Source: a virus
Strand: one strand, 5' to 3'
IMG/VR virus record: IMGVR_UViG_3300009507_000158
Coordinates: 1 to 21,405 of that record
DNA: 21,405 bases
Of the stretch, positions 2,630-19,019 are shown in pieces (positions within the stretch are counted from its first letter, which is position 1; every line of letters begins with the position of its first letter). The position numbers and the translations under genes are program-made. A model generated the notes under the pieces. The model saw only the letters and a program-made list of their open reading frames with translations. It had not been told where the DNA came from and did no database searches.

Positions 2630-2796
2630 TGGATGAAGATCTTAAAAACGTGGTAGCGTCTGTAGGTTTATTTATTGACAACATATTATATGATATGAGA
2701 AATGTATCTAAGTCTACAACAAAGCCCGTTATATTGGCTCATATAGAAGCCTGGAAGAATGAATTAGAAACAATTAAAAGCTTTACACAAACATAA
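2629..2796 (+). CDS. Small helical protein upstream of nrdB, unknown function
   Basis: Fifty-five codons run from ATG at 2629, overlapping the previous TAA as TAATG, to TAA at 2794-2796. That stop in turn overlaps the nrdB start as TAATG. The protein begins MDEDLKNVVASVGLFIDNIL and ends LAHIEAWKNELETIKSFTQT. It looks mostly alpha-helical and soluble. No family is recognised. The double one-base overlap leaves no intergenic sequence and argues that it is translated, with nrdB translation probably coupled to it. Confidence 0.6.
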   Translation: MDEDLKNVVASVGLFIDNILYDMRNVSKSTTKPVILAHIEAWKNELETIKSFTQT

Positions 2797-3764
2797 TGGG
2801 ATTATTTGATAAAAGAATAGCATACAAGCCTTTTGAGTATCCAGAATACTACACGGAAGGTTGGTTAAAACAAGCTCAAGCATTTTGGTTACACACTGAA
2901 ATCTCAATGCAAGGCGATTTAAAAGATTGGAATGAAAGACTTACAAAAAAAGAAAAGCACCTCGTTGGAAACATTTTACTTGGGTTCGCTCAGACAGAGT
3001 GCGCCGTGTCCGACTATTGGACTCAGAAAGTTGTTGGATGGTTTCCGAAACACGAGATCCAACAAATGGCAATGATGTTTGGTTCACAAGAAACTATACA
3101 TGCAGTTGCTTACAGTTATTTAAATGAAACATTAGGATTAGAAGATTATGAAGCATTTTTACACGAGCCGGCCACGTCCGACAGATTTGATAATCTGGTT
3201 GCTTATGACGGTAATAACCTTACTGGTATTGCGAGGAGTTTGGCTGTATTTTCAGCCTTTGCTGAGGGAGTTAGCTTGTATTCTGCTTTTGCTGTTTTAT
3301 ATTCTTTTCAATTACGCAATCTCCTTAAGGGGGTAGGCCAACAAATGAAGTGGTCAGTAAGAGATGAATCATTGCACAGTAAAATGGGATGTCAATTATT
3401 CCGTCATATGTGCGAAGAAGATGATCAGTTACTACACTTATGTCGAGAAGATATAATAAAAGCTGCAGAAGCAATGGTTTCTTTAGAAACAAAGTATATA
3501 GACAAGATGTTTGAGATGGGTGACATTGAAGGCATATCGTCTAATGATTTAAAACATTTTATAAAAAAGAGAACAAATGAAAAACTTGTGGAACTTGGTT
3601 ACGTTGACCTGGGGTCGTATTTTGCGTATGACACTAAAGCAGCAGCTAATCTTGATTGGTTCTATCATCTTACCGGGGGCGTCACTCATACTGATTTTTT
3701 CGCAATTAGGCCAACAGATTATAGCAAAGCTGGTGAGGGTGAGGACTATGAGGACATTTGGTAG
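2796..3764 (+). CDS. nrdB: Class I ribonucleotide reductase, small (beta, radical-generating) subunit
   Basis: The protein has 322 residues, close to the family length. It generates the radical that NrdA uses to reduce ribonucleotides to deoxyribonucleotides. All six dimetal ligands are visible: E68 (FAQTE; Asp84 in E. coli), E99 and H102 (SQETIH), E157 (FAEG), and E191 and H194 (RDESLH). Y106, four residues after H102, lies where E. coli has radical Tyr122, so a tyrosyl-radical enzyme is plausible. The first ligand is Glu rather than E. coli's Asp. The opening GLFDKR...KPFEYPEYY and the FAQTECAVSDYW segment recall marine phage and cyanophage NrdB. The C-terminal tail (EDYEDIW) has a Tyr suitable for radical transfer and docking to NrdA. 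The start is fixed by TAATG overlap with the upstream small gene. nrdA follows after one small ORF. Confidence 0.96.
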   Translation: MGLFDKRIAYKPFEYPEYYTEGWLKQAQAFWLHTEISMQGDLKDWNERLTKKEKHLVGNILLGFAQTECAVSDYWTQKVVGWFPKHEIQQMAMMFGSQETIHAVAYSYLNETLGLEDYEAFLHEPATSDRFDNLVAYDGNNLTGIARSLAVFSAFAEGVSLYSAFAVLYSFQLRNLLKGVGQQMKWSVRDESLHSKMGCQLFRHMCEEDDQLLHLCREDIIKAAEAMVSLETKYIDKMFEMGDIEGISSNDLKHFIKKRTNEKLVELGYVDLGSYFAYDTKAAANLDWFYHLTGGVTHTDFFAIRPTDYSKAGEGEDYEDIW

Positions 3765-4016: not shown

Positions 4017-5735
4017 ATGTGGAACAATGATTGGATTAAAGGCGAGGACTATCCTGCGTGGGGTGATACGAACGTATACAAGAAGACAATATCCGGGGGA
4101 TACTTATATAACGGAGAAACACCTAGAGAAGCATACCATAGGGTCTCTAAAACGGTTGCTCGTAGATTATATAAACCAGAGATGGCTGAAACTTTTTTTA
4201 ATTATATTTGGAATGGTTGGCTGTGCCTTGCTAGTCCGGTACTCTCAAACACGGGGACTGACAGGGGCTTACCTATTAGTTGCTTTGGTATCGATGTTGC
4301 TGATTCGATTCAGGATATCGGACAGAAAAATCTAGAGATGATGCTACTCGCTAAGCAAGGTGGTGGTGTTGGTATTGGTATTAATCAAATAAGACCTGCG
4401 GGCGCTAAAATTACAGGTAATGGAACATCAGACGGAGTCGTACCTTTCTGCAAAATATATGACTCAACAATTCTTGCAACTAATCAAGGGAGTGTCCGTA
4501 GAGGAGCTGCCTCAGTTAATATCAACATCGAACACGCGGACTTTGAGGAGTGGCTTGAGATCAGGGAACCTAAAGGAGATGTTAACAGACAATCGCTTAA
4601 CTTACATCAGTGCGCAATTGTTGGCGATAAGTTTATGCGTAAGCTTGAACAAGGGGATGCTGAAGCAAGGGGTAAATGGAGTAAATTGCTTAGAAAGCGA
4701 AAAGCAACTGGAGAACCGTATATTATGTTTAAAGGAAATGTTAATAAAGCAAATCCAGAAGCATATAAGCACAACGGATTAAAAGTTCATATGACTAATA
4801 TATGTTCAGAAATAACGTTACACACCGATGAAAACCACAGTTTTGTATGTTGTTTATCATCATTAAATTTATCAAAATATGAAGAATGGAAAGATACTAA
4901 TCTTATATATGACTCAATATACTTTCTTGATGGGGTTATGGAGGAATTTATTCAACGCGCCAAAGGGCTTCGAGGTTTCGAAAATAGTGTTAGATCAGCA
5001 AATAAAGGGCGTGCTTTGGGCTTGGGGGTCCTTGGATGGCACACATATCTCCAAGAAAGAGGAATACCTTTTGAAGGTTTACTATCTCAGTTTGAAACTA
5101 GGAAAATATTTTCACAAATTAAGATTGAAAGTGAAAGAGCTTCTAGGGATCTTGCTGAAATTTATGGCGAGCCTCTGTGGTGTGTTGGTACTGGTATGCG
5201 CAATACTCACCTTCGCGCTGTTGCTCCCACTGTTAGCAATAGTAAGCTTAGTGGTAATGTTTCGCCAGGAATAGAACCATGGGCTGCTAATGTATTTGCA
5301 GAGCAAGGAGCTAATGGAACTTTCATTAGAAAGAATCCTACATTAGTTAAACTATTAAGAAAACATAAATTAAATAATGAAAAGATATGGAGTAAAATAC
5401 TGGCTGATGGAGGTTCGGTCCAAGATATCAGTGAGCTTGATAATATTACTATGGGCCATGACATACCTGCTAAGGAAGTGTTTAAAACGTTTAAGGAAAT
5501 TAATCAACTAGAATTAGTTAATCAAGCAGGGTTAAGACAACAGTATATAGATCAGTCTGTTAGTTTAAACTTAGCGTTTCCTTCTGAGGCAACACCTAAG
5601 TGGTTGAACAAAGTTCATTTTAATGCATGGAAGCAAGGTATTAAAACTTTATATTATACTAGAACTGAATCTGTTTTACGAGGTGATATAGCTGCAAGCG
5701 CTATGAATGAAGATTGCCAAGCATGTGATGGCTAA
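4017..5735 (+). CDS. nrdA: Class I ribonucleotide reductase, large (alpha, catalytic) subunit lacking the ATP cone
   Basis: The protein has 572 residues, much shorter than E. coli NrdA (761). It reduces ribonucleotides with the NrdB radical. Catalytic residues are present: C89 (PISCFG; C225 in E. coli), N261/C263/E265 (NICSEI; N437/C439/E441), C278 (FVCCLSSLN; C462) and Y546/Y547 (TLYYTRT; Y730/Y731). The PTVSNSKLSGNVSPGIEP region is also normal. The C-terminus ends CQACDG with C567 and C570, the swinging-arm cysteines re-reduced by thioredoxin or glutaredoxin. Residue 1 begins directly before the alpha-subunit core, so the N-terminal ATP cone that mediates dATP inhibition is absent. This would let dNTP synthesis continue at high dATP, as expected of a lytic phage. 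The start lies one base after the upstream stop (TAATATG). The C-terminus is intact despite the homing endonuclease gene that follows. Confidence 0.96.
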   Translation: MWNNDWIKGEDYPAWGDTNVYKKTISGGYLYNGETPREAYHRVSKTVARRLYKPEMAETFFNYIWNGWLCLASPVLSNTGTDRGLPISCFGIDVADSIQDIGQKNLEMMLLAKQGGGVGIGINQIRPAGAKITGNGTSDGVVPFCKIYDSTILATNQGSVRRGAASVNINIEHADFEEWLEIREPKGDVNRQSLNLHQCAIVGDKFMRKLEQGDAEARGKWSKLLRKRKATGEPYIMFKGNVNKANPEAYKHNGLKVHMTNICSEITLHTDENHSFVCCLSSLNLSKYEEWKDTNLIYDSIYFLDGVMEEFIQRAKGLRGFENSVRSANKGRALGLGVLGWHTYLQERGIPFEGLLSQFETRKIFSQIKIESERASRDLAEIYGEPLWCVGTGMRNTHLRAVAPTVSNSKLSGNVSPGIEPWAANVFAEQGANGTFIRKNPTLVKLLRKHKLNNEKIWSKILADGGSVQDISELDNITMGHDIPAKEVFKTFKEINQLELVNQAGLRQQYIDQSVSLNLAFPSEATPKWLNKVHFNAWKQGIKTLYYTRTESVLRGDIAASAMNEDCQACDG

Positions 5736-5867: not shown

Positions 5868-6476
5868 ATGTGTGATAATTATATTATGGATATATACTTT
5901 TACAGAACAAACAATAAACTTAATGGTAAATTTTACTATGGAACACATCAACAAAACGGTAGGCCTTATTTAGGATCAGGCACAATACTAAACAGAGCTA
6001 TAGATAGATACGGCGTTGACAGTTTTGAGTTTGTTATACTTAAAAGATTTAATACTAGGCAAGAAGCGTATGATTTTGAAGATAGGTTCCTAAAACTATA
6101 TAATATATCATCATTACCTAATTCTTATAACATAAAAAACGAAGGTTGTGGTGGGGATACTTTTACTAACAACCCACGTAAAGAAGAAACGCGGATAAAG
6201 CACCGTATCAACATGACTAAAAGAATGTCAGATCCAGCAGCGAGAGCTAAAATAAATGCGTTTAGAGACGTTTCAGATGCTAGGTTGACTTATCTTAAAG
6301 AAACTTGGTCAAAAGCCTCTACGGGTCGTCTAAATGGGCGCGCTAAGAAAGTATATGTTAAAGATAAACTTTACCACACTATAGATGAAGCTGCTTTAGG
6401 AGAAGCTTTAACAAGACAACAAGTAAAATATCGATTAAAAATGGATCACTATCCAGATTTTAAATTTAGCGTGTGA
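5868..6476 (+). CDS. GIY-YIG homing endonuclease, free-standing
   Basis: The protein has 202 residues. The N-terminal nuclease domain reads IYFYRTNNKLNGKFYYGTHQ (residues 9-28; the GIY and YIG strands become YFY and YYG). It is followed by YLGSGTILNRAIDRYGVDSF and a helix with the catalytic Glu candidate (YDFEDRFL, E71). The linker RMSDPAARAK and the C-terminal segment VYVKDKLYHTIDEAALGEAL resemble the modular DNA-binding repeats (NUMOD/IENR type) of phage homing enzymes. Such enzymes cut a target in phages that lack them and spread by repair. The gene lies 132 bases after intact nrdA and just before the operon terminator, a typical insertion at the edge of an RNR cluster. An internal ATG at 5886 (MDIYFY) fits the domain start equally well. 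There is no sign of a group I intron around it. Confidence 0.88.
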   Translation: MCDNYIMDIYFYRTNNKLNGKFYYGTHQQNGRPYLGSGTILNRAIDRYGVDSFEFVILKRFNTRQEAYDFEDRFLKLYNISSLPNSYNIKNEGCGGDTFTNNPRKEETRIKHRINMTKRMSDPAARAKINAFRDVSDARLTYLKETWSKASTGRLNGRAKKVYVKDKLYHTIDEAALGEALTRQQVKYRLKMDHYPDFKFSV

Positions 6477-6593: not shown

Positions 6594-6953
6594 TTAATAA
6601 GTCCATAATACTTTTGGAGCTTTGTCTTTATCGATATCTACATGTATAAACGACTTGCCTATACCTATCCTTGTAAACCCAACTTCTCTTAATATACCTT
6701 CTAATAAAAATCTATCAGTTGAATTTGTGCACTTTATATCTACAGCTAATCCTTTTAAATGAGATGAGGTGGGTTTACCACCAACCTCGGCATTGTGTTC
6801 AATTGTTCTATAGCCAGAATTTATAGCCATAGATTTACCATACTTTTTTCTAGCAACATCTAGCATACTTATTAGTTCATTACTAACTAGCTTTCCGCTG
6901 CCTAAAGAATCTGGAGAATCAAATTCTCCGTAAGTAAAATATTTAAACTTCAT
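6594..6953 (-). CDS. Peptidase M15-family zinc endopeptidase (probable endolysin or virion lytic enzyme)
   Basis: The protein has 119 residues, about the size of the compact M15_3 domain. Zinc ligands are visible in SSHLKGLAVDI (H65, D72) and FIHVDID (H104), with D106 next to it. INSGYRT (44-50) is the usual substrate-side Arg motif. Family members cleave D-Ala or L-Ala-D-Glu bonds in peptidoglycan. No signal peptide or membrane segment is present, so release would need a holin or packaging in the virion; no holin gene is visible here. The gene is the last of the minus-strand unit. Its ATG overlaps the stop of the giant gene as TAATG (6951-6955), so the two are translationally coupled. It could therefore act at entry, with the ejection proteins, as well as at lysis. 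Confidence 0.9.
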   Translation of the reverse strand: MKFKYFTYGEFDSPDSLGSGKLVSNELISMLDVARKKYGKSMAINSGYRTIEHNAEVGGKPTSSHLKGLAVDIKCTNSTDRFLLEGILREVGFTRIGIGKSFIHVDIDKDKAPKVLWTY

Positions 6954-9900
6954 TATTTAAATTTAGGTGTTTTAAATTTAGGTGTTTTAAAAGCGTTTTT
7001 CTTCTTCTTTTTTGATGATTTCTTTTTATCTTTAGGAATATTTAAATCGTATTTAGACCATCCTAATAATAAACCTAGCCTTTGTATTTCATCAAGCTCC
7101 ATGGTAGTTGCATCAACTATATTATTGATTTTTCGCATAGCCCTATCTAAAGGAATATTAGTTAAAGCGGAAGTTACTTGAGCACCAGCCATTAAAGCTG
7201 GATTGTCTATAGAAAAACCTTTGTCTATTACTTCTTGTCTACTTCCTGGATATGTAAATTTACGACCAGCACTTTTTATTTGTTGATATTTATATCTTAT
7301 TGGAGGAGAGAATCCTAATGCAGCATCGGCTACCCTGTCATAATCCTGAACAGTTTTACCTTGTTGTTTGTATATTTCAAGACCCATATCTTTTAGAGAA
7401 TTTACGATATTACCACTAACACCACTTCCTCTAAGTAAAGATGAAGCCATACCATTAACTACATCTATGTACTTATTTTGTGTTTTTGCTTCTGCTTTTC
7501 TTTTAGCAGCAGTAGATGTGGTATCATCGTCGTCATCTCCCATAAGATCCATAAATAAAGCTTTTTGTAAGCCATTAAACAATACATTTTGTAAAAATGA
7601 ATAGTAAACTATTTTAGATATATTTGTTTTTTGATCTCCTCTACCCGCTTTAAGATCCATTGCAGATTTTTTAATTATTCTAGCGTACTGACTAGGCGTA
7701 TTTGCAAATGATAATACAGTTCTTCCTAAAATTCCCGATTGTTGTTGGCTAATTTTATCAGGTCTACTTGATTGCTGTGATTCTTCTGCGGTTTCTTTGA
7801 AATCTAAAAAAGCTTTTTCTTTTGCTTCTTTTTCTGTATAAACTTTTTCGCCTTCAGCATTTGTTTCTTTTAAATAAGTTTTATATCTATTTCTAAAAAA
7901 TGTAGATCCTCCTGAAGCAATAGCAAAACTATCTGCTAATTGCGTTGGTGTAAAACCTACTTTTAATATTTTAGCAATAACTCCATTAATACCGCCTGCT
8001 TTAGCTATATCAGCTATTTCTGATTCTGTTACATTAAATTCAAGACCTCCTCTTCTATTTTTTAGATATTCAGAATTAAATAACATTTTAAAGTCACTCC
8101 AATATTGAGGTTGATTTGCAAAGGCGGCACCAGCTTTAAATATGTTGTTATCAGACATGTTTACAAAGTTACTTGCAGATATTAATTGCAATACTGCAGA
8201 TCTTTGATTTAAAAACATAATAGCTCCCGTTGAATTATTAACCCAGTCAGTAACTCTACCTCCTAAATAATCACCAGATATGTTTCTGTTTCTACCGGTT
8301 TTCATTCGATGTAACATGTTTTCCATTGCCTTGCGATAGCTTTTACCGTATACGCCTTCTAGTTTATTTAAGTTTTCTTTAGAAAAAATTTGATCTACAT
8401 TAGCTTGCCATTGTTCTAAATGCTGAGCTCTTTTTGTAGTATTAATGCCTTGCAGTAAATCTGTAGAAACATTACCAGATACCCAGTTATTACTAGGCTC
8501 TGGATAAGGTGTACCTTTATTTATTAATCTAATTTTATTCGCAAACTCAATCAATTCTGGATTTTTAACAAATTCTTTAATAACAGCATCAACCTCAGCT
8601 TTGTCTATACTTGGTATTTCATTACCTTGCTTAGACCATATATACATTCTTAAAGCATCTTCACCTGTATATTCTAAACCAGGCAATTTATCTTTCATTT
8701 TTTTAGTCAATGGCGATGTTCCTTTCCAGTCTTTACCAGCAATAGCTTCTGTAATTTCTTTTTTAATTTGCTTAAAATCTCTCATTAAAGCATTACGCTC
8801 ATTTGTAACAGCGGCATCTCCTCTAGCAAATGGATCAAGTAAATTCTTTTTATACCAAGCTAATTGCGCATTACCTTCTTTTCCTTTACCTAATGTTTTA
8901 TATAACAATCCAACGAAATCTTCTGCAGATGGTGGTATGAATAGATCAAGTCTACCTTTATTTTTACCTGCTTTTACACCTCGACTTTCGCTAAAAACAT
9001 CTTCAGCTTTAACACCAGTTTTATTTTCTATTATTTTATTGAATGTTTTACTTAAATCTCCGGAATTTAAATCTTTTGATGCAAAAGCTTTTGCACTTAC
9101 ATCAATTTTATCCATTTCAGCTAAAGCTTGATCATTTGTTTTAATGTTTTTAATATCTGCCCCTGCTTCTTTTAATAATTTTAAATTTGTTTTATTTGGA
9201 GGAGTTGATTCTTTTATAGATTTTTTAACTAAATAATTTCCCAGCAAACTTTTAGAGGGGGCGTGATAAAATTTATTTAGTTTTTTTACAATTTGTTTTG
9301 AAGTCATAACCAACGCATCTGCCCCTACAAGTTTTAAATATGATTGCATTTGAGGTGAAAACACACTGCCTAAAGCTTTGTCAGCTTCTACTCTAGATGT
9401 ATTGTCCACAAGAGCACTTTCATATCCTGTGTTCAATTTTTTTAATCCAGGTTCAAGATCAACTAAACCTTCTTTTAATAAGTTGATTGCATCGGTTTTA
9501 TATTTTACCGATTCTTTTAGATGCTCATTAGAAAATTTACCTTTTGTTGTTAATTCAAAAATTGTAAAAGGTGATGCAAGTCTAAACCCAAATTGTCTAT
9601 TATGAGTAAACATTAAAGATAATTTTTCTATAGCCTTTATTCTTTCCGCAGGTTTTCCCTCATATTTAGAGTTTAAACTTTTATTCATGCTTTTTATAAT
9701 AGCATTGTGATAAGCAGTATTTAGCTCATTAGAAAATCTAAAATTTTCTTCGTATATTTTATCTATTTCTTTTTCTTTTGCTTTATCTGTTAAGCTTTCA
9801 TTTGAAGTTATATTTCTAACTTTTCCAACACCTGTATTATTTGAACCCTGGGATATTTCTGCAAAAAACTTTTGTTGACTTTTTTCTACTAAATCAAAAA

Positions 9901-12900
9901 CAGGTTTCCATATAGAAGCATCAGCCTTGCTACCTAAAGTGCTTTCAAAATCTTTTAAAAATTGCTTAGTAGATTTACCCATTCCTCCGTCGTAGCCAAA
10001 TGTTTCAGCTATAATAAAACCTTTTTCTCCTGATAAAGTTTTTTGGAACTCTAAGATTTTTTTAGGTATTAATTCTAATATTGAGGCAGCTTCTTCTCTA
10101 AATTCTTTATGTGCTTCAGTATTGTGCCCAATTTTATTATTGTTTAATATATTTAAATTAGTTTCTGTTTTTAAAACTTCTTGACCTATTGCTTTTTTAA
10201 TATTTTCAGCTATTAATTCTTTTGCTTCAGTAGTATTAATAAATGATCTAACAGCAGCTTCTGATAATCTTCCTGATAATTCAGTATCTAATTCACCTCT
10301 TGTATATTGATTTATTAAAGTTCTATATTGCGCTTCGTTACTAACCGCAAGATCTTTCATTTTTAAAACTTCTTCATATAAGTCTTTAGACGAAAAAGAT
10401 CTATCTGCTTCACCTGAAGGTAATCTATCTAATTCTATAGAAACTTTTGATATAAAGTTTTCTCCTACATCATTACCCAATTCAGTTTGTCGTTCTTCTA
10501 CAATCTTTTTAAATGTGTCAGATTCTATTTTTTCCATTATAGCATCTTTACCTATTTCCATGGCTATAGTTTCTATAAGAGATCTTCTTTTACCGTCTAA
10601 TCTTTCATTACCAGTACCATCGCCTCCGAAGTATTTTTTCCATTCCGCAGGTGTTATATTTTTTTTCTTAAAAATAGCGTTACCTTGATCCGTAGCTTCT
10701 CTGGCTTGCTCTCCTGTTTTAGAATCTATTAATGGCTCAGCAAATATATTAAATCTTTTATTTATACTAGACTGACTTATATAATTTTTATATAATTTAA
10801 AAGTGTTGTCAATAAATGCAGAATATTCCGGAGTGGGTATTGCATTTTTAAATGATTGACCAGGTATTTTAGGTATTTTTAATTTACCAGCTTCTTTTTC
10901 TATTTCTTTAAATAAACTTATTTTAAAAGCCTCTTGTTGATATTGATTAAAGTTTTTAAGTTTAACGGGTTTTCCTTCTACGGATAATCCTTGCTTTGAT
11001 AAGTAATCGTTTACTTCTTTGAATCCTCTTGCTTTAATGTTTACAGTTTTATCTCCAATAGTGATATCTGCATTGTCTCTGAATAAAGCATAAGTAGCTT
11101 CCTCGCCTGACGATAGTTTAGCTTTAGCTATAGATCTAGCTCCTAATGTAGGAAACTTTAGCAGTAAAGTTTTTTCAGCTATACTCGTTGCCTTGTCGTT
11201 AATATTTTCCGATAATTTAGCCACAGCTACTGCAGCTTTTCTAGAAACCCTGTCATTTTTAGATAAATCTAAAAAAGCAACGCTACCTTCACCAGAAGAA
11301 GCCTCTTGCATTATTGCTTCTTGCTGGTTTTCTTCCATCCCCCCTAGCTTAATAGACTGCATTTGTTCAGCATATTCAGGTTTTTGCATAATACCAAGTA
11401 TACGCTTGTCTATATCTCTTTCAAGCATTGTAGTTAAGGTAGCCTCTGCTTTTGTTCCTTTAGCTATGGCTTCAAGGTTATCCAATCTAGAAGGCCCTTC
11501 GCTTTGTCTTATTTCACGTATTCCGTTTTCTTTAGCAAAGTTTTGAATTTCTTGTTTGCTTGGATTGTTATCTTTAACATATTTTATAACTTTTTGCCCT
11601 TCAAAATAAGGTTTTACAATGCCAGGAACTCCTCCTCTGTCCATTATTACAGCATCTGTAAGATTTTCAGCAAAATCGCTATCAACAGGTATGCTATTTC
11701 TATCTATATACCTTCTTATTTTTTGTAAAACTCTAGGCCTATATGCAAATCCAACCATGACGCCAGTTGCATCTATGTTTATTCTTTTTTCGCTAATACC
11801 TTCTTCATAAGCTTTATTTACTTTACTAAATATATCCTTATTATCTACGTCTAATTCTTTAGAAGAAAAATCTTTAAGAGCCTCTGCTTTTGTTTTAATT
11901 TCAGCACCAGTTTCTAAATCTATTAATTTTTTACCATCAATTTCTATGTTGGAAAACTTTTCAAACTGTTTAGAAATATTTTTACCTCCTTTTTCTATAT
12001 TACCAAGATCATATAAAAATTCCAAAAGATCACTTGCTCTATTTATATTTTTTTCTCCAATTTCTAAAGGTTTTTTAGAAGACAAGTCTAGGCCTATTTT
12101 ACCCGCGGTATTTTTAACTATTCTATTTATCCCTGTTAATAAGCCTTTACTTAAAAGCAAATCTTTGTATTTAGGATTTTGTAAAAATTCCGCAATATTC
12201 ATCACGTATTCTTCAGGTCTTTGTGATTTGTCTTTATACTTTTCATTAATAATTTCTTGAAAAGTTTTATCCCCTAGTTCACCGAAGCGCTCTCCTTCTA
12301 AAGCTTTATTAACAGTTGTTTCAATACCTTCTTTAAATTTTTGGGCAACACCTTCATTATTTTTAAAAGCTAAATCCATTAAAGCATGCCCTACTTCTTG
12401 TGTAAAAACACCTGGTTTATATTTTGATAGATCAACTTGAAATTCATTTGATTCTGGAAAGTACTTAGCCTTACTGCCATCTAAAGCATTAGGCTCTTTT
12501 TCGTTTCTTATTATTTTTAGTACAGGAGTTTTACCTTTAGATTGGAAAACCCCCGATTTTTTTACATTGTCAAATGATTTTTCTATACCAACTTTAGCTA
12601 TTTCAATTTTAGACTCAGCAACAATAATTTCTTTTTCTAAAATTCTTTGTTCTCTATTTGAAATATTACCTTCATTGATTTTAGTTCTTGCACTGTTTAT
12701 TTCTGAAGTTAATTCCCCAACATCTTTATTATAAAACGAAGCGTCCGCTCTTAGCAAGCTATTTTCTAATTCAATAGCATAATTTTCTTTTTGTTTTCTT
12801 TCTTTACCTTCTAATAAATAGTCACCCTCTGCATTTGTTTCAGTTAATAAACGCATAGCATCAGTAAAATTAGCTCTTTTTTTAGCAACACTCATAAAAT

Positions 12901-15208
12901 CAACTGATTTTAGTTTTGTGACACCCATGCCTGCAAATGTAAAGAAATCTACTATTAATTTTTCAAAGCCTTTGCTTTGGTTTTCCATAGTATTTTCATT
13001 ACCACTTTTTTTTCTTTCTTCAACTTCTTTTTCTGAAAGCAAAGCTCCAGTAGTTTTGTCATAATATATGCTACCATAGGTTTCGTTCATAAACTTTCCC
13101 CAATCAACATCTTTTGATAAAGATTTAAGCGCTTCTTCTGTAAATAAAGCTGCATTACTACCTGTCATACCACCTAATCCAGGCGCTACTATTTTTTGAA
13201 ACACAGGTTCAAGAGCTTGGTATGGTCCACCAAATTTAACTTTACTTAAAAATTTATTTGCTAGTTGTCCACCCGCAAAAAACCCTACACCACCACCGGT
13301 TTGTGATTCACCACCTGTTACAATTTTAAATTTAGCCTCTTCTAAAAGAGCGTGATATATAAAACTTTCTGTTTGTTGTTTAATAGTAGGGGTAAAATTT
13401 TTAGTTCTTTTAAGGTGTTTAGCCATTTTAAGTCCAAACTTAGTGGTAGCTAAAGTACCTCCTGTTACCGCATTTAATACACCAAATTTAATAATTTCCG
13501 GAACAAACCCACCTAAACCCTCTGCTATTTGAGTAGGTAATGATCTTCTGTAATTTTCTCGCTGAGATTTAGACATGTCTATCCCATAATCTGTTTGGAG
13601 CTCTTCTATCGCATCCAATTCCATTCTTCGAGTTGTACCTATACTTTTAGTTAAATCCTCCCCTATTGTAGCCGTACTCATCGCTCCTACAAATTCGCCT
13701 ATCTTGTCACCAACTTGATTACCTATAGTTGATTTAATACTACCTGGATCTATGTTAAGCATAAATGTAGTAGTTAAAGCTTCTCTGTTTATATTTAACC
13801 TTATATTGTCTTTGTAAAGATCATCAAGCAAATTTGAAAAACCTGCTTGCCCGAGTGTTTCTTCTTTAGAACCTAATGTAGTTGCTTTACTTAATTCTTT
13901 GTTTATATCTGTTATGTTTCTAAGAGGTAATAAATCTTGATATTTTACTTCATAAATACCATCTTTATTAGGTTTATATCCTTTACTTGATAAAGCATTT
14001 ATTAAAGGAAAAAAAGATGATTTTAATTTTACTGTACGATTTTCTCTTTGTGTAAGATCTTGTGTTTCTAATACATTTAATACAAAAGCTTCCTCAAGCT
14101 GAGTAGCGGTTGATTTTTTGTATTGAGTAGTTTTAGCGTCAATTTCTTTTTTTAAATTTCTAGGTTTAGATTGCCCTGTAAGAACATCTTTTTCTTTTTG
14201 GGATAAAGACATGTTTTTCCCTGTAATAGGATCAATCCAGTATTGAAAGTTTTTATTATAATCTTTTATAGCATCACTAGATGCTTCAGACAATGTAGCT
14301 ATCTCTTGCGAAGCCTCAGCAGCCTGTGAAGCAGTGCCGTTATCTCTTACATCTCTTAGTTTTTTTAAACGAGAATTTATATTTGCTATAGTTGTTTGTT
14401 TAGGTGAAAGGTTTTTTGAATAATCTTTTACGCCTAATTCTATAGTAGCTGTATATCTTTTAGCATCGCGTAAGTCTTGTATTACAGCACTTCTCTTTGT
14501 ATTCTCTTCCTGTTTTTCTTTTTGTAAAGCGGTATCTATTCTTGCGTTTACAAGAGTGTTTATAGTGCTTTCTGCAGGGGCTAGTTGACTTGGGTTTAAT
14601 CGATAAAAAGATTCTGTAATTTTATTTGTTAAAGCATTTCTCCACTCAGGATTTTTATTTAATTCTGTTATACTTTGCCCTTCAATAGGATCTTTAAATA
14701 TCATACCTTCCTCCAGTTGATAAGGGATGTTTGTGTTAAAAATGGCATCAACGGAAGAATTAAAATTGTCAGCTATTTCTTTACCTTCTGGTGTAGTTAG
14801 GTTTTTTTCTATTTCTATTTCATCATTTAGATCAGCAATTATTTGACCCTTCATTGTTGTTCTAAAAGTTTTAGCTTTTTCAAGCCTGTCTTCTAATTCA
14901 ATTAACCTTTCACTTTTAGGTTTAGGATCTAGTGAATCCAAAGAAGTATCTACCGAAGGTAACACCGTATCTTCTGGTTCCACATACCCGGCTTGTGATG
15001 CTGTCATTGGTTGTTGCACTGCATCCGCATCCTCTACAGTACTTGTTGGAAAATCCACTTCTTCAGTTTTAACTTCAGTTACTTCTGTAACTTCTTCTTC
15101 AAAAGTAATATTATTTTTACTAGTATAATCTTCAAGAGATAATCCTGCTTTATCTGCTGCATTTTGAATCTCTTCTTCCGTGTACTTTGATCCGTCGTAT
15201 ATATACAT
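6953..15208 (-). CDS. Giant 2751-residue virion/ejection protein candidate (polyvalent-type)
   Basis: A single uninterrupted frame of 2751 codons. Residues 1-40 (YTEEEIQNAADKAGLSLEDY) are a small helical unit. The next 400 residues are charged and helical, with coiled-coil stretches. Around 555-690 lie Gly-rich hydrophobic segments (GLGGFVPEIIKFGVLNAVTGG, GGGVGFFAGGQ) that could insert in membranes. Around 937-941 is QEVGHALMD, a zinc-metallopeptidase HExxH helix with Gln for the first His. Residues about 2300-2600 (GDYLGGRVTDWVNNS, FANQPQYWSDF, ESQQSSRPDKISQQQ, LSFANTPSQYAR) form a block I remember from large hypothetical proteins of marine phages. An acidic DDDDD run follows near 2556, and a Lys-rich tail ends with KTPKF repeats. 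The position after two structural genes and before a lytic peptidase parallels T7 gp16, suggesting a protein packaged and ejected into the cell. No RNA polymerase signature was found. The function is inferred. Confidence 0.85.
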   Translation of the reverse strand: MYIYDGSKYTEEEIQNAADKAGLSLEDYTSKNNITFEEEVTEVTEVKTEEVDFPTSTVEDADAVQQPMTASQAGYVEPEDTVLPSVDTSLDSLDPKPKSERLIELEDRLEKAKTFRTTMKGQIIADLNDEIEIEKNLTTPEGKEIADNFNSSVDAIFNTNIPYQLEEGMIFKDPIEGQSITELNKNPEWRNALTNKITESFYRLNPSQLAPAESTINTLVNARIDTALQKEKQEENTKRSAVIQDLRDAKRYTATIELGVKDYSKNLSPKQTTIANINSRLKKLRDVRDNGTASQAAEASQEIATLSEASSDAIKDYNKNFQYWIDPITGKNMSLSQKEKDVLTGQSKPRNLKKEIDAKTTQYKKSTATQLEEAFVLNVLETQDLTQRENRTVKLKSSFFPLINALSSKGYKPNKDGIYEVKYQDLLPLRNITDINKELSKATTLGSKEETLGQAGFSNLLDDLYKDNIRLNINREALTTTFMLNIDPGSIKSTIGNQVGDKIGEFVGAMSTATIGEDLTKSIGTTRRMELDAIEELQTDYGIDMSKSQRENYRRSLPTQIAEGLGGFVPEIIKFGVLNAVTGGTLATTKFGLKMAKHLKRTKNFTPTIKQQTESFIYHALLEEAKFKIVTGGESQTGGGVGFFAGGQLANKFLSKVKFGGPYQALEPVFQKIVAPGLGGMTGSNAALFTEEALKSLSKDVDWGKFMNETYGSIYYDKTTGALLSEKEVEERKKSGNENTMENQSKGFEKLIVDFFTFAGMGVTKLKSVDFMSVAKKRANFTDAMRLLTETNAEGDYLLEGKERKQKENYAIELENSLLRADASFYNKDVGELTSEINSARTKINEGNISNREQRILEKEIIVAESKIEIAKVGIEKSFDNVKKSGVFQSKGKTPVLKIIRNEKEPNALDGSKAKYFPESNEFQVDLSKYKPGVFTQEVGHALMDLAFKNNEGVAQKFKEGIETTVNKALEGERFGELGDKTFQEIINEKYKDKSQRPEEYVMNIAEFLQNPKYKDLLLSKGLLTGINRIVKNTAGKIGLDLSSKKPLEIGEKNINRASDLLEFLYDLGNIEKGGKNISKQFEKFSNIEIDGKKLIDLETGAEIKTKAEALKDFSSKELDVDNKDIFSKVNKAYEEGISEKRINIDATGVMVGFAYRPRVLQKIRRYIDRNSIPVDSDFAENLTDAVIMDRGGVPGIVKPYFEGQKVIKYVKDNNPSKQEIQNFAKENGIREIRQSEGPSRLDNLEAIAKGTKAEATLTTMLERDIDKRILGIMQKPEYAEQMQSIKLGGMEENQQEAIMQEASSGEGSVAFLDLSKNDRVSRKAAVAVAKLSENINDKATSIAEKTLLLKFPTLGARSIAKAKLSSGEEATYALFRDNADITIGDKTVNIKARGFKEVNDYLSKQGLSVEGKPVKLKNFNQYQQEAFKISLFKEIEKEAGKLKIPKIPGQSFKNAIPTPEYSAFIDNTFKLYKNYISQSSINKRFNIFAEPLIDSKTGEQAREATDQGNAIFKKKNITPAEWKKYFGGDGTGNERLDGKRRSLIETIAMEIGKDAIMEKIESDTFKKIVEERQTELGNDVGENFISKVSIELDRLPSGEADRSFSSKDLYEEVLKMKDLAVSNEAQYRTLINQYTRGELDTELSGRLSEAAVRSFINTTEAKELIAENIKKAIGQEVLKTETNLNILNNNKIGHNTEAHKEFREEAASILELIPKKILEFQKTLSGEKGFIIAETFGYDGGMGKSTKQFLKDFESTLGSKADASIWKPVFDLVEKSQQKFFAEISQGSNNTGVGKVRNITSNESLTDKAKEKEIDKIYEENFRFSNELNTAYHNAIIKSMNKSLNSKYEGKPAERIKAIEKLSLMFTHNRQFGFRLASPFTIFELTTKGKFSNEHLKESVKYKTDAINLLKEGLVDLEPGLKKLNTGYESALVDNTSRVEADKALGSVFSPQMQSYLKLVGADALVMTSKQIVKKLNKFYHAPSKSLLGNYLVKKSIKESTPPNKTNLKLLKEAGADIKNIKTNDQALAEMDKIDVSAKAFASKDLNSGDLSKTFNKIIENKTGVKAEDVFSESRGVKAGKNKGRLDLFIPPSAEDFVGLLYKTLGKGKEGNAQLAWYKKNLLDPFARGDAAVTNERNALMRDFKQIKKEITEAIAGKDWKGTSPLTKKMKDKLPGLEYTGEDALRMYIWSKQGNEIPSIDKAEVDAVIKEFVKNPELIEFANKIRLINKGTPYPEPSNNWVSGNVSTDLLQGINTTKRAQHLEQWQANVDQIFSKENLNKLEGVYGKSYRKAMENMLHRMKTGRNRNISGDYLGGRVTDWVNNSTGAIMFLNQRSAVLQLISASNFVNMSDNNIFKAGAAFANQPQYWSDFKMLFNSEYLKNRRGGLEFNVTESEIADIAKAGGINGVIAKILKVGFTPTQLADSFAIASGGSTFFRNRYKTYLKETNAEGEKVYTEKEAKEKAFLDFKETAEESQQSSRPDKISQQQSGILGRTVLSFANTPSQYARIIKKSAMDLKAGRGDQKTNISKIVYYSFLQNVLFNGLQKALFMDLMGDDDDDTTSTAAKRKAEAKTQNKYIDVVNGMASSLLRGSGVSGNIVNSLKDMGLEIYKQQGKTVQDYDRVADAALGFSPPIRYKYQQIKSAGRKFTYPGSRQEVIDKGFSIDNPALMAGAQVTSALTNIPLDRAMRKINNIVDATTMELDEIQRLGLLLGWSKYDLNIPKDKKKSSKKKKKNAFKTPKFKTPKFK
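6956..6990. repeat. Tandem 15-base repeat encoding KTPKF copies
   Basis: TTTAAATTTAGGTGT occurs at 6956-6970 and again at 6971-6985, with a partial third copy to 6990. In frame on the minus strand it encodes the repeated KTPKF at the extreme C-terminus of the giant protein. The 15-base unit keeps the frame, so copy number could vary without breaking the protein. Confidence 0.85.
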
Positions 15209-15224
15209 TTTTTTAATTTAATTA

Positions 15225-16793
15225 TTATGGTAACTTAGGTCTATCTTGATTTCCTCCGATTATTGCTTTAAGCAATCTATCCCTTTCAGAAGGTTCTATT
15301 CCAGGAATTAATAAATCTAACATTGAATTATTTAGTTCTTTAGGATCAGAAATATCAACTGGTATTATTGCTCCAGAAGAAGTTCTATAAGCCAAATCTG
15401 TTTTGGGCCGCACATCTTCCCAGCTTTCTTCAGTATTTCCATCTTGCCTTAAATATAAAGCTTTTAAATCTTCTGTTCTTACAATTTTAGGATCAGACCC
15501 TCTGCGTTTAGAATTAATTACATCTACAAAAGCACCTAACTTATCTAAATTAAAATTTTTACTTCCTTTTTGTTTTTTGCTATCTGTTAAAGATTTTATT
15601 TCATTTAAGACTTTTTTTCCTAGAGATACTCTACCTTTAAATTTTTTACTTGCTTCTGTTAATTTAGTTGTTTTTTCGTCACCTGTTTTATCATATACTT
15701 TTCTTAAAGGTTTTTCTACCCCCAAACCTTCTTCTTTTATAAGCATTTTAGCATAAGCTATTTGAGTTCTATTAAGAAAAGGATCAATTATTTTGCTAGT
15801 AGCATCCCTGTCCCATGTAGCCTTATCTGGGTCTATTATTTTAAAAGCATCTCCTAGATCAGGCATACCAGGCATTGTAGGAATTTTATCTATATATTCT
15901 AACATTTTGTTGTTACTTAGCCTAACAGCGGGTTGTGCTCCTATGCCTATTATATAAGAATCTGATTTTTTTCTAACATCCTCTATTAAACGAGCCATGT
16001 CTACTTCTTGATATTCTTGGGTGTAACTCCCTGTTACGTTTCCTTCACTATCTTTAATTGGAACTCTTCTAGTTTTAACACCCTCTTTGTAATAATTTAC
16101 TTTTGTTTCTTTAATTCCAACACCAACTTCTTTCATATTTTTAGTAGGGTTGGGTACTACAGGAAGATCAAAAGCTCTGTTAGCATCTGTACCTATTTTA
16201 TTTCCTTCGCCGTCATACGAAACAACTTCAGTATATCCTCTACTTAAATTGCTATCCCATCGCATGGTTCCAATAGATCTACCAGCTGTACTACCTACTT
16301 GCCCTTCAACATCTAATGTTTTATAAAGATTAGGTGATACAAATTTATCTATTCCGTCAAAATCTCCTGGAGGTATCTCCATCGTATCATTGTATGACTG
16401 CATTTTTGCTTCCGTTTGCTTAGCGTCTTCTAAAATTTGATTAGGAATTGTTTGAAGCCATGATAACTCTTTAGCATTATCTGTAGTAAATTTTAAAGGA
16501 GAATCGAGTTGTTTTTTTATTAATTCATTGTGTCTAGTTAAAGCTCCTTCTAAAGGGGTTTGCCAATCAGTTGCACTGTTTTTAATATCAGCAGCATTAT
16601 AAGCATTTAAAAATTTACCCTGTGCAGAATTAAGCTTTTGAACTCTTTCAACATTTTCTTTTTCTCGCTGCTTGTAATTTGCTTGAATTGTTTTTATAGC
16701 ACCAGTAGTTGCACCAGTAATTTGCTTAAGCATATTTTGTATATGTTGGCCTGACTGTGTGTCTACTACTTGTTGTGGATTTCTATAACTCAT
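15225..16793 (-). CDS. Internal virion / ejection protein candidate (522 residues)
   Basis: The protein has 522 residues. It begins MSYRNPQQVVDTQSGQHIQN, an opening I recall from structural proteins of marine and Bacteroidetes phages. A helical, Gln/Lys-rich segment (30-110) follows. A mixed middle holds a short beta-rich insert (YTEVVSYDGEGNKIG, then VPIKDSEGNVTGSYTQEYQE, 190-260), and the C-terminal half is Lys-rich and helical. There is no signal peptide or membrane segment. It lies 16 bases upstream of the giant gene and 19 bases downstream of the coiled-coil gene. This matches the place of T7 gp15 between gp14 and gp16, though I see no direct sequence similarity to gp15. The virion assignment is from context; no enzyme motif is visible. 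Confidence 0.75.
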   Translation of the reverse strand: MSYRNPQQVVDTQSGQHIQNMLKQITGATTGAIKTIQANYKQREKENVERVQKLNSAQGKFLNAYNAADIKNSATDWQTPLEGALTRHNELIKKQLDSPLKFTTDNAKELSWLQTIPNQILEDAKQTEAKMQSYNDTMEIPPGDFDGIDKFVSPNLYKTLDVEGQVGSTAGRSIGTMRWDSNLSRGYTEVVSYDGEGNKIGTDANRAFDLPVVPNPTKNMKEVGVGIKETKVNYYKEGVKTRRVPIKDSEGNVTGSYTQEYQEVDMARLIEDVRKKSDSYIIGIGAQPAVRLSNNKMLEYIDKIPTMPGMPDLGDAFKIIDPDKATWDRDATSKIIDPFLNRTQIAYAKMLIKEEGLGVEKPLRKVYDKTGDEKTTKLTEASKKFKGRVSLGKKVLNEIKSLTDSKKQKGSKNFNLDKLGAFVDVINSKRRGSDPKIVRTEDLKALYLRQDGNTEESWEDVRPKTDLAYRTSSGAIIPVDISDPKELNNSMLDLLIPGIEPSERDRLLKAIIGGNQDRPKLP

Positions 16794-16812: not shown

Positions 16813-17550
16813 CTATTTACCCGCCGCTAGTGCTCCCATATATGCACCACCAATAGATGTTAAACCTCCAATAGCACCTGTTATTGCCCCTGTTCTATCT
16901 GAACTTGCTTGCGCTTGTCTTGCTTGTGCACCTGCTAATTGAGCTGATGCTCTGTCTAATTGAGCATCCTCTCTATTTTCTTGAGTCTGAAATTGAAATT
17001 GTCTACCTTGCATTTCCATACCTTGAACTCTACCTCCTTCAGCAATTTGAACACCTTGAACTCTTTGTTGTTCAGCCATCCTTCTAGCTTGTAAATCTTG
17101 CTCTCCTTGAGCTCTTAGTCTTTCATTTTGAGCTTCTTGATTTTCTATACTGGCAGATACACCTTTTTTACTTTGTAATGCAGCTTGCGCTAAAGCGGTT
17201 GCTCCACCAGCTCCAGCCCCAGTTGCTCTTATAGTATCCAATGTATTAGCTAATGATATATCAGCTTGTTCTATTTCTATTTCAGCGGCTTGTGTAGCTA
17301 CACTTAGATTAGCCATATTGTTAGTTAACTGTCCGCTTAAGTCTTGAGCTAATCCGCTTAGGTTTGTAACTCCTTCTGCTGGATTTATTATTGCTTGCCT
17401 ATTGTTTTCTAAGTAGGTTATTTTTCTTTGTGCTGCTTGTCTTTCTCTTCTAGCTGCTCTTTCAGCTTTTTTAGCTTTTCCTGCTCCAAAAAGACCACCA
17501 ACAACGTTAAGCACCGCTCCGCCTATTGCCACTCCTGCCATTAAACTCAT
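16813..17550 (-). CDS. Ala/Gln-rich coiled-coil internal virion protein (T7 gp14-like by layout)
   Basis: The protein has 245 residues. It has a Gly/Ala/Val hydrophobic N-terminus (AGVAIGGAVLNVVGGLFGAG, 5-24) and then a strongly basic helix (KAKKAERAARRERQAAQRK). A long Gln/Glu/Ala-rich coiled coil follows (about 120-215, with repeated VQG and RAQ turns), and it ends in a second Gly/Ala segment (TGAITGAIGGLTSIGGAYMG). Hydrophobic glycine-rich ends flanking a coiled coil are typical of podovirus ejection proteins such as T7 gp14, which form part of the trans-envelope channel. The segment is not a cleavable signal peptide, because a basic helix follows rather than a cleavage site. It sits between the tail hub-like gene and the 522-residue gene, which fits this role. 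The assignment is by architecture and position. Confidence 0.75.
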   Translation of the reverse strand: MSLMAGVAIGGAVLNVVGGLFGAGKAKKAERAARRERQAAQRKITYLENNRQAIINPAEGVTNLSGLAQDLSGQLTNNMANLSVATQAAEIEIEQADISLANTLDTIRATGAGAGGATALAQAALQSKKGVSASIENQEAQNERLRAQGEQDLQARRMAEQQRVQGVQIAEGGRVQGMEMQGRQFQFQTQENREDAQLDRASAQLAGAQARQAQASSDRTGAITGAIGGLTSIGGAYMGALAAGK

Positions 17551-17575: not shown

Positions 17576-18985
17576 TTATCTTCCATATGTTGCGCCTACT
17601 GCAAACAACTCTTTTAATCCACCTAGATCTGTTGTTGCATCTGTTTTCATAGTTACTGTAGCGTAGTATGCTTTTATGCCTGAGCTATCAGGTCCAATCA
17701 AAACTTGACCATCTATAGGTTGAGTTGAATTATTTTTAATAGCTGCTACATATCTGTTTTGCTTTCTATTAAAACCAGCTCTATAAGGTATACCGCCTTC
17801 TGTATAAAGGCCTTCGTCATAACTCCATATTCTCGATGAAGTATCTATTGTTTCATCCCATCCAGCTCCTCTTGCATCAAATCCAGTAGCATCAGAAACT
17901 AATGATGTAATCTCCCAACCGTTTGTTCCTTCGTAATTAACAGTATTAAATGTTTTAACTCTTGTTGGATCTGGATTAATAACAAACTTCAGTGTTGAAG
18001 GTAGGCTAGCAGCATCATAGAATGAATTTCTAAGTACTGGTGCTGGTGGTGCAGCTTTTGTTTGTAAAACGTAATGTTCCCAAATAGATGTTCCGTTTGT
18101 TGTAAAAAACTTACCTTGAGAACTAAATCCAGAACTTGGTTTATAGTCATAAAAACTTACCCAACCATTTGTAGCTTCTTCAAAGCTTAATGTATTATAA
18201 GTATTATCTGCATTTTGTAACGATAGTACATAGTTTTTATTATATATATCGTAAGCACCTACTATTTTACCAGTAGAACTAACAGTTGCTAACTTATCTC
18301 TAAAGAAATCAACCATACCGTAGCTAGATATTTCAGTAATGCCATCCATTGATAACCTAAGCACAGCATTTCTGTTTCTATCTGTAAAGTATTTTTGATA
18401 TCCGTAAACAGCAAATGATTCTGGGTTTGTGGATATACCGTATTCACCAGAATAAGGTATTATCTGGCCAATAACTAAATTAGCGCTTGTTGTAATAGCT
18501 CCACCTTCTGCAGAGTATATAGCGTCTTTATCTATTAAAGCTCTATTTACTTTGTCTTCTTGAAATACAATTAAGTTAGTATCTTCAGCATAAAGCTTTT
18601 GTATGCTTCCGCTAATAGGATCAACACTTCTAGTTATTTGTTCAGCAATACTAAATTGATTAGATTGGTTTACACCTGTTCTAGAATTAAATATTCCAGA
18701 ATATATTAATGAACTTGATCTTCGTTGTTGCGCATCGTTATCTTCTACTATGTATGCTTTTACGCCTAGATCAGTTGAAGTATTGTTATAACCACCTCGT
18801 ATTCTTGATTCTTCAATATACCAATCTTCCTCTACTATAGAAGTAGATGGAGCCACCCAAGGATATGGAACTAAGCTAGTATCAGGTAAAGAAACTACAT
18901 TAGTTGGTCCCACTGGTACCGGTATATCAGCTATTCTCTTCAAATAAAATGAGTTAAAGTACCCTACTTCTAGTGTTATTGACAT
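17576..18985 (-). CDS. Tail hub/nozzle-like structural protein (crAss-like/podovirus stabilisation type)
   Basis: The protein has 469 residues and looks beta-rich throughout. The segment WYIEESRIRGGYNNTS (55-70) is followed by a motif at 199-230 with key parts YFTDRNRNAVLRLS, DGITEIS and YGMVDFFRD. Both recur, as I remember, in tail stabilisation or muzzle proteins of crAss-like phages and other Bacteroidetes podoviruses, and in a beta-propeller setting analogous to T7 gp12. Further propeller-like repeats follow: IVGAYDIYNKNYVLSL, TLSFEEATNGWVSFYDY and IWSYDEG. There is no lytic or enzymatic motif. The stop of the upstream tail gene is 34 bases away, so the two are probably made together and assembled side by side. 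The crAss-like link rests on motif memory, not a search. Confidence 0.75.
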   Translation of the reverse strand: MSITLEVGYFNSFYLKRIADIPVPVGPTNVVSLPDTSLVPYPWVAPSTSIVEEDWYIEESRIRGGYNNTSTDLGVKAYIVEDNDAQQRRSSSLIYSGIFNSRTGVNQSNQFSIAEQITRSVDPISGSIQKLYAEDTNLIVFQEDKVNRALIDKDAIYSAEGGAITTSANLVIGQIIPYSGEYGISTNPESFAVYGYQKYFTDRNRNAVLRLSMDGITEISSYGMVDFFRDKLATVSSTGKIVGAYDIYNKNYVLSLQNADNTYNTLSFEEATNGWVSFYDYKPSSGFSSQGKFFTTNGTSIWEHYVLQTKAAPPAPVLRNSFYDAASLPSTLKFVINPDPTRVKTFNTVNYEGTNGWEITSLVSDATGFDARGAGWDETIDTSSRIWSYDEGLYTEGGIPYRAGFNRKQNRYVAAIKNNSTQPIDGQVLIGPDSSGIKAYYATVTMKTDATTDLGGLKELFAVGATYGR

Positions 18986-19019
18986 ATTATATTAATTACT
19001 TGTTTTTTCTATTTATTAC

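Follow-up and report, generated by a model that had tools for sequence, protein, structure and literature searches.

A giant candidate ejection protein of a marine flavobacterial phage, with a constant C-terminal block and an exchangeable front part

The question raised by this locus is what a phage protein of such exceptional length is for. Within the window, by which we mean the whole 21,405-base virus record analysed here, a single gene at 6953-15208 on the minus strand opens with ATG and encodes 2751 residues, taking up 38.6% of the sequence and bearing out an earlier reading made from the letters alone (the first-pass annotation), which had put this 2751-residue protein at over a third of the window. 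Collinear open reading frames of 2720 and 2733 residues, 77-78% identical to the window protein, are found at two sister loci (L003 and L004), and the pairwise dN/dS over the whole gene is ~0.18 (0.147/0.828); the reading frame is therefore a real gene under coding constraint. An identical copy is held by a 37.6 kb IMG/VR contig (L002).

The giant itself has no sequence match in Pfam, PHROGs, NCBIfam or the PDB, its C-terminal block (hereafter the C-block) taken alone has none in the PDB, and tblastn against 50,697 phage records returned zero matches both for the whole protein and for the C-block on its own. At the level of Pfam, PHROG, NCBIfam and PDB sequence comparison, the first-pass statement that there is no clear enzyme domain holds, but it does not extend to a zincin family that is detectable through relatives. 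Neither a lytic transglycosylase nor an RNA polymerase family was found in Pfam, PHROGs or NCBIfam, and nothing else in the window copy was recognised as an active enzyme. The reading that we favour, at a probability of roughly 0.7, is that a short-tailed marine Bacteroidota phage makes three ejection (cargo) proteins, of which the giant comes last and is the largest, and that the giant joins an exchangeable polyvalent payload to a constant C-block.

Gene neighbourhood and the ejection-protein slot

The genes that surround the giant follow the order muzzle, small membrane-helix protein, medium protein and giant, all on the minus strand. The muzzle seems to be represented first by a protein of 1415 residues, of which the window holds the C-terminal part (19020-21404) and which at its N-terminus resembles the beginning of the muzzle PHROG, and then by a 469-residue protein (17576-18985) whose Pfam (2.2e-10 and 4.3e-8) and PHROG 14478 (1.5e-51) matches, at the C-terminal end of the crassvirus muzzle, mark it as the C-terminal part of a crAss-type muzzle. 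Positions 1-179 of PHROG 14478 are covered by the former and positions 924-1145 by the latter; the muzzle is a single gene in crAss001 and phi38:1, and in the window phage it is seemingly split over two (17576-21404; 1942-7633 in L002). Next comes a 245-residue protein with an N-terminal transmembrane helix (16813-17550), in the slot of T7 gp14, and then a 522-residue protein (15225-16793), in the slot of T7 gp15 and crAss gp46 and hypervariable among relatives. The giant is the last of this small-medium-giant set beside the tail nozzle gene.

The same order is kept in Cellulophaga phage phi38:1, Maribacter phage Panino, Tenacibaculum phage Gundel_1 and Flavobacterium phage elemoF, whose giants measure 1691, 1829, 2482 and 3694 residues, respectively, and both order and relative sizes equal those of gp14-gp15-gp16 in T7, gp45-gp46-gp47 in crAss001 and gp52-gp51-gp50 in N4. 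In crAss001, gp45 to gp47 sit in the virion, with gp45 posed in the tail for N-terminus-first ejection (PMC10172136). In Cellulophaga phage phi18:3, all three proteins after the muzzle, a 1935-residue giant included, are annotated from experimental MS/MS. By its gene slot and the MS/MS identification of its phi18:3 counterpart, the window giant is a probable virion protein, a reading supported by homology and synteny, and this marine flavobacterial phage very probably packs the giant in the virion and ejects it into the cell. The first-pass annotation had argued from gene order for packaging and ejection in the manner of T7 gp16. Slot and delivery agree with this, but no transglycosylase was found, and giants from flavobacterial podoviruses are nearer relatives.

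Directly after the giant lies the gene of an M15 peptidase/endolysin (6594-6953, minus strand; Pfam, PHROG), a position that could suit a late-expressed effector or adhesin outside the virion; since the same-slot counterparts are annotated as structural, in phi18:3 from the MS/MS data, we consider such a role extremely improbable. Further along, a plus-strand block contains a ribonucleotide reductase large subunit (4017-5735), with its nearest phage relative, at 60%, in Flavobacterium phage immuto, and, from a look at the sequence, an apparent small subunit (2796-3764) and a MazG-like protein (509-1273), with a GIY-YIG homing endonuclease gene (5868-6476) adjoining.

A constant end and an exchanged front part

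A search with the C-block placed relatives at no fewer than 583 viral loci or contigs. From 80 fetched loci and earlier matches, 79 complete open reading frames of 1887-3065 residues were read, and the marine reading frames together with four giants of cultured phages make up a set of 76 distinct giants. The C-block also occurs in ten bacterial or archaeal genome records, among which bins named Flavobacteriaceae, Cryomorphaceae and Saprospiraceae fit Bacteroidota hosts, and some others (Woesearchaeota, Aliivibrio) resemble contamination. The marine group is large and has no name in the libraries searched; the significance of the comparison is that it links at least 583 contigs of unnamed marine viral giants to cultured phages related to them and to a delivery system already described.

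The C-block of the window giant spans residues 1983-2743 (6980-9262; coordinates within the giant all refer to the minus strand) and has a match in all 69 other marine giants tested, so that the conserved C-terminal block of the first-pass annotation is indeed kept in all marine relatives. Complete relatives keep the final ~700 residues, and most of the remainder is exchanged between them. Upstream patches that match the window giant are few: residues 1-110 in 12 giants, an island at residues 1454-1570 (10499-10849), belonging to no known family, in 18, and residues ~38-1124 in two giants besides the close pair L003/L004. Residues 1641-1980 (9269-10288) have no detectable relative outside that pair and were matched in 0 of the 69 other marine giants tested. 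A search for middle-region intermediates yielded one, L094.

Among 71 loci, the C-block and the gp14-slot protein could be aligned in every pair; when the front part of the giant was divided into thirds, pairs without a match amounted to 81%, 46% and 64%, and the figure for the gp15-slot protein was 87%. The C-blocks of L020 and L034 are 84% identical and their N-parts share a match of 89 residues only, those of L054 and L055 are 86% identical with no front-part match, and in the C-block tree L014 and L023 stand beside relatives with quite different front parts. From these pairwise matches, the two pairs of loci and the tree, it follows that recombination has replaced the front part and left the end behind it constant. 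The gp15-slot protein (15225-16793 and its counterparts) varies as much as the front part of the giant, unlike the conserved protein of the gp14 slot. Joint exchange of the N-part and the gp15-slot protein was also considered and dropped as an argument, the correlation being present but weak (partial correlations of 0.10 and 0.16).

The N-region of the marine giants can be aligned to that of the cultured giants (E 1.7e-16). The N-region of the window giant's own clade did not align to the giants of phi18:3 or phi38:1, and its sequence links to these two run via other marine relatives. In this phage-encoded chain the zincin, the C-block, the island and a small alpha/beta domain of unassigned family predicted in the AlphaFold model (residues ~1334-1440; 10889-11209) are distributed separately among the giants, with further catalytic modules in relatives, so that several unrelated domains share one polypeptide. 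The split between constant block and exchangeable payload indicates where injected effectors and the packaging signal should be sought.

Several smaller elements named in the first-pass annotation recur in the relatives. Its N-terminal helical unit corresponds to a 36-residue leader (residues 1-36; 15101-15208; consensus MxxYxGxxYTxEEIxxAA...SLxDY), which forms the N-terminus of 27 giants and was found in no other open reading frame searched; the window giant has it, and its 77%-identical nearest sisters L003 and L004 lack it. The acidic run lies inside the C-block at residues 2558-2562 (7523-7537), and most relatives looked at have one at a corresponding place in theirs. The Lys-rich tail (residues 2727-2751; 6956-7030) is likewise general, with at least 8 Lys or Arg among the last 25 residues in 63 of 72 giants. 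The Gly-rich membrane-like stretches fared less well: a Gly-rich, weakly hydrophobic helical region is present (residues 543-713; 13070-13582; common to L065), but its membrane character is weak, all segments of the giant stay below the hydropathy cut-off applied for transmembrane helices, and the clear transmembrane helix is in the 245-residue neighbour, not in the giant.

Domain-by-domain structure prediction and fold search had been proposed as a check, and they were informative for the C-block in BFVD but not in the PDB. The AlphaFold models are of low confidence overall (mean pLDDT ~64), and Foldseek with both whole models found nothing significant in the PDB. The C-block, predicted to be all-helical, gave 57 BFVD matches at E <= 1e-3. 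Marine homologues come first (E down to 1.5e-44), including one that bears the name UDP-N-acetylglucosamine kinase, and many of the next carry names such as large polyvalent protein associated, ART-PolyVal, MuF, nuclease and crystallin-motif. The window giant reaches none of the LPD or MPTase Pfam models, and the likeness of the C-block to phage large polyvalent proteins consists of fold matches to proteins so named. A crAss-type RNA-polymerase subunit stands at rank 48 (1.9e-4). Together with the same slot and a similar size, this weak match would suit a virion RNA polymerase subunit, as crAss001 gp47 is annotated; however, Pfam, PHROGs and NCBIfam detect no such family in the giant, and gp47 has no significant sequence match to the zincin and C-block profiles, which makes this reading highly unlikely.

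The zincin-type core and the payload modules

In the front part, mid-chain, an HExxH motif was found in 61 of the 76 giants, once in nearly all of them, as against a chance expectation from shuffled sequences of 0.26 on average and at most 2. It is followed by EE 40-70 residues on and by a conserved helix. When 23 diverse front parts with a mean identity of 15% were aligned, E938, H941 and E1000 were three of the four nearly invariant columns, and an independent set of 25 giants recovered the same glutamates and histidine. E1895 had appeared near-invariant in one alignment, did not do so in the second and was discarded. A profile built from intact copies only matches the window giant at residues 937-1076 (E 1.7e-11), inside the zincin-type core that extends over residues 870-1080 (11969-12601). 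In the AlphaFold model, a helix, three strands, the motif helix and a later helix with E1000 succeed one another in zincin-like order, with a pLDDT of ~85-94 there.

The window copy itself departs from the motif. The broken zincin helix of the first-pass annotation proved to be QEVGH at residues 937-941 (12386-12400), in which the first His is replaced by Gln; E938, H941 and the third-ligand glutamate of the EE motif, E1000 (12209-12211; seen in alignments and again on 25 other giants), are kept. QEVGH is common to the window giant, L003, L004, L014 and L023. A different set (L017, L018, L027, L039 and L043) reads EELFH, with Glu in place of the first ligand, and because this set exists besides the QEVGH set, the first zinc ligand seems to have been lost more than once. 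The front-part intermediate L094 has an intact HEFNH. Relative to L003, the zincin core is the most conserved region, with 89% identity and a dN/dS of ~0.09, compared with 77% identity in the C-block. QEVGH, taken with these two values, means that a ligand has been lost and yet the domain is strongly constrained.

An active metallopeptidase is expected to have two motif histidines and a third ligand, and the window giant retains one of the histidines. Its zincin is probably catalytically dead but constrained; the likeliest reading is a pseudoprotease that this clade has retained as a binding module or a folding core. Could the site instead still hold metal and be active, the coordination being completed by Gln or some other residue? 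That E938, H941 and E1000 are all kept, in the most conserved region of the chain, is in line with this; yet polyvalent MPTases bind zinc by both motif histidines and a glutamate of the next helix (PMC5512222), and the EELFH set indicates that the position tolerates loss. We therefore regard an active site in the window copy as quite improbable and retain the pseudoprotease.

Intact zincins are found in the giants of Gundel_1 (1.4e-12) and elemoF (1.8e-22), and none was found with the zincin profile in those of phi38:1, phi18:3 and phi13:2. An isolated segment of L005 gave weak zincin-family matches (SprT-like, 0.0014; DUF5700, 0.0024). Against PDB chains the profile gave chance-level matches only, zinc proteases at HExxH among them, and against an N4 zincin profile it reached a probability of 63%, which is suggestive only. 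With a near-universal zincin and a constrained inactive form, the role of a virion protease becomes testable in culturable phages (Gundel_1, the elemoviruses).

Other catalytic modules occur in relatives. A HAD-type phosphatase module sits directly before the C-block in 28 of the 72 marine giants (DUF2608 above cut-off; PHROG polynucleotide kinase, 3.6e-9); with its motif IRVFDFDDTLA, it was noted in L007, L070, L080, L090 and 24 other loci, being present or absent between otherwise related giants. One marine relative has a zeta-toxin-like kinase (Pfam Zeta_toxin, 6.9e-12). The carrier is most likely L046, because a segment around residue 800, after the zincin, has a P-loop of zeta-toxin-like or UDP-GlcNAc-kinase-like type and a polynucleotide-kinase PHROG match (3.3e-12). 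The Gundel_1 giant has a weak GNAT match (0.0018) and the elemoF giant a DUF3293 (1e-12). A PD-(D/E)XK reading of a segment in L032, from a weak look, was given no confirmation by Pfam and was abandoned. The first-pass suggestion of a polyvalent protein with several activities in one chain thus applies to the family, in which most members have the zincin and some the modules above, but not to the window copy, whose sole recognisable enzyme domain is short of one zinc ligand.

These modules also bear on a purely structural role, in which the whole chain would form the head core or a trans-envelope channel as an ejectosome protein and its sequence would change by co-evolution with the gp15-slot protein and not through a turnover of effectors. 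The slot, which equals that of T7 gp16, the hypervariable gp15-slot protein with its weak correlation, and the fact that no intact active site was found in the window copy would all suit such a role. The intact HExxH motifs, the HAD module, the zeta-toxin-like kinase, and GNAT and DUF3293 in cultured relatives argue against it and render it unlikely, although the window copy, taken by itself, could have the purely scaffolding role that the first-pass annotation named as a refuting outcome.

Delivery model and comparison with known systems

On the reading of the giant as polyvalent cargo, it would be stored in the phage head and leave via portal and muzzle once the small membrane-helix and gp15-slot proteins have gone; it would travel partly unfolded, with its N-terminus in front, and refold in the host. 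The constant helical C-block and the basic tail would probably serve packaging and docking to the ejection machinery, and the front part would be the exchangeable, polyvalent-type payload that acts in the host around its zincin core. Metallopeptidase activity is to be expected of the zincin in most relatives, where it would trim its own giant or cut host proteins, and both self-processing and host-protein cleavage have been proposed for polyvalent proteins (PMC5512222). In the window clade, the change of the first zinc ligand to Gln would leave a pseudoprotease for binding or a folding core. A broader proposal, which we put forward tentatively and at less than even odds, is that marine Bacteroidota podoviruses combine one constant C-terminal delivery block and rapidly exchanged injected effectors in a single gene, and that the hub protease of some lineages has become a conserved pseudoprotease that binds, and does not cut, a host or phage partner.

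How does such a protein compare with ejection proteins already described? T7 gp16 is likewise a large ejected protein in the slot after gp14 and gp15, but the window giant is twice as long, no transglycosylase was found in it, and gp16 has no sequence match to the profiles tested. The virion RNA polymerase of N4, gp50, is also a giant that closes an ejection set begun by a small and a medium protein. Its HExxH domain precedes a large, helical C-terminal domain for which no relatives are known (PMC12633501), and encapsidation depends on the MPTase region (PMC5512222). In contrast, the window giant has no RNA polymerase, and the zincin profiles of the two align at the 63% given above. crAss001 shares a muzzle homologue upstream, the same gene order (gp45, gp46, gp47) and a giant cargo protein in the virion; its gp47, of 2341 residues, has HEAFH near the C-terminus, with the zincin at the C-terminal end, whereas that of the marine giants is mid-chain.

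The giants of cultured flavobacterial podoviruses (Gundel_1 gp74, elemovirus gp18, phi38:1 gp101, phi18:3 gp123) likewise stand behind a muzzle, a small and a medium protein. Too distant for tblastn detection from the window giant, they have an N-region homologous to that of the marine giants and, in Gundel_1 and elemoF, the intact HExxH. They differ in that no C-block was detected in phi38:1, Panino or elemoF (Gundel_1 has a trace of it, 8e-9) and no zincin in phi38:1, phi18:3 or phi13:2.

A further likeness is to the polyvalent proteins of phages, in which a zincin-type MPTase, marked by HExxH plus a glutamate in the helix that follows, is the most common hub, if not a universal one (PMC5512222). 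Unlike these, the window giant reaches no LPD or MPTase Pfam model and has a zincin without its first His. With them, it and its family share one long chain, a zincin-type hub (in the window copy by profile and lacking one ligand), exchangeable catalytic modules and a helical C-terminal part similar in fold to proteins named large polyvalent, ART-PolyVal or MuF (Iyer et al. 2017, PMC5512222), and by its architecture the window giant belongs with the phage polyvalent ejection proteins.
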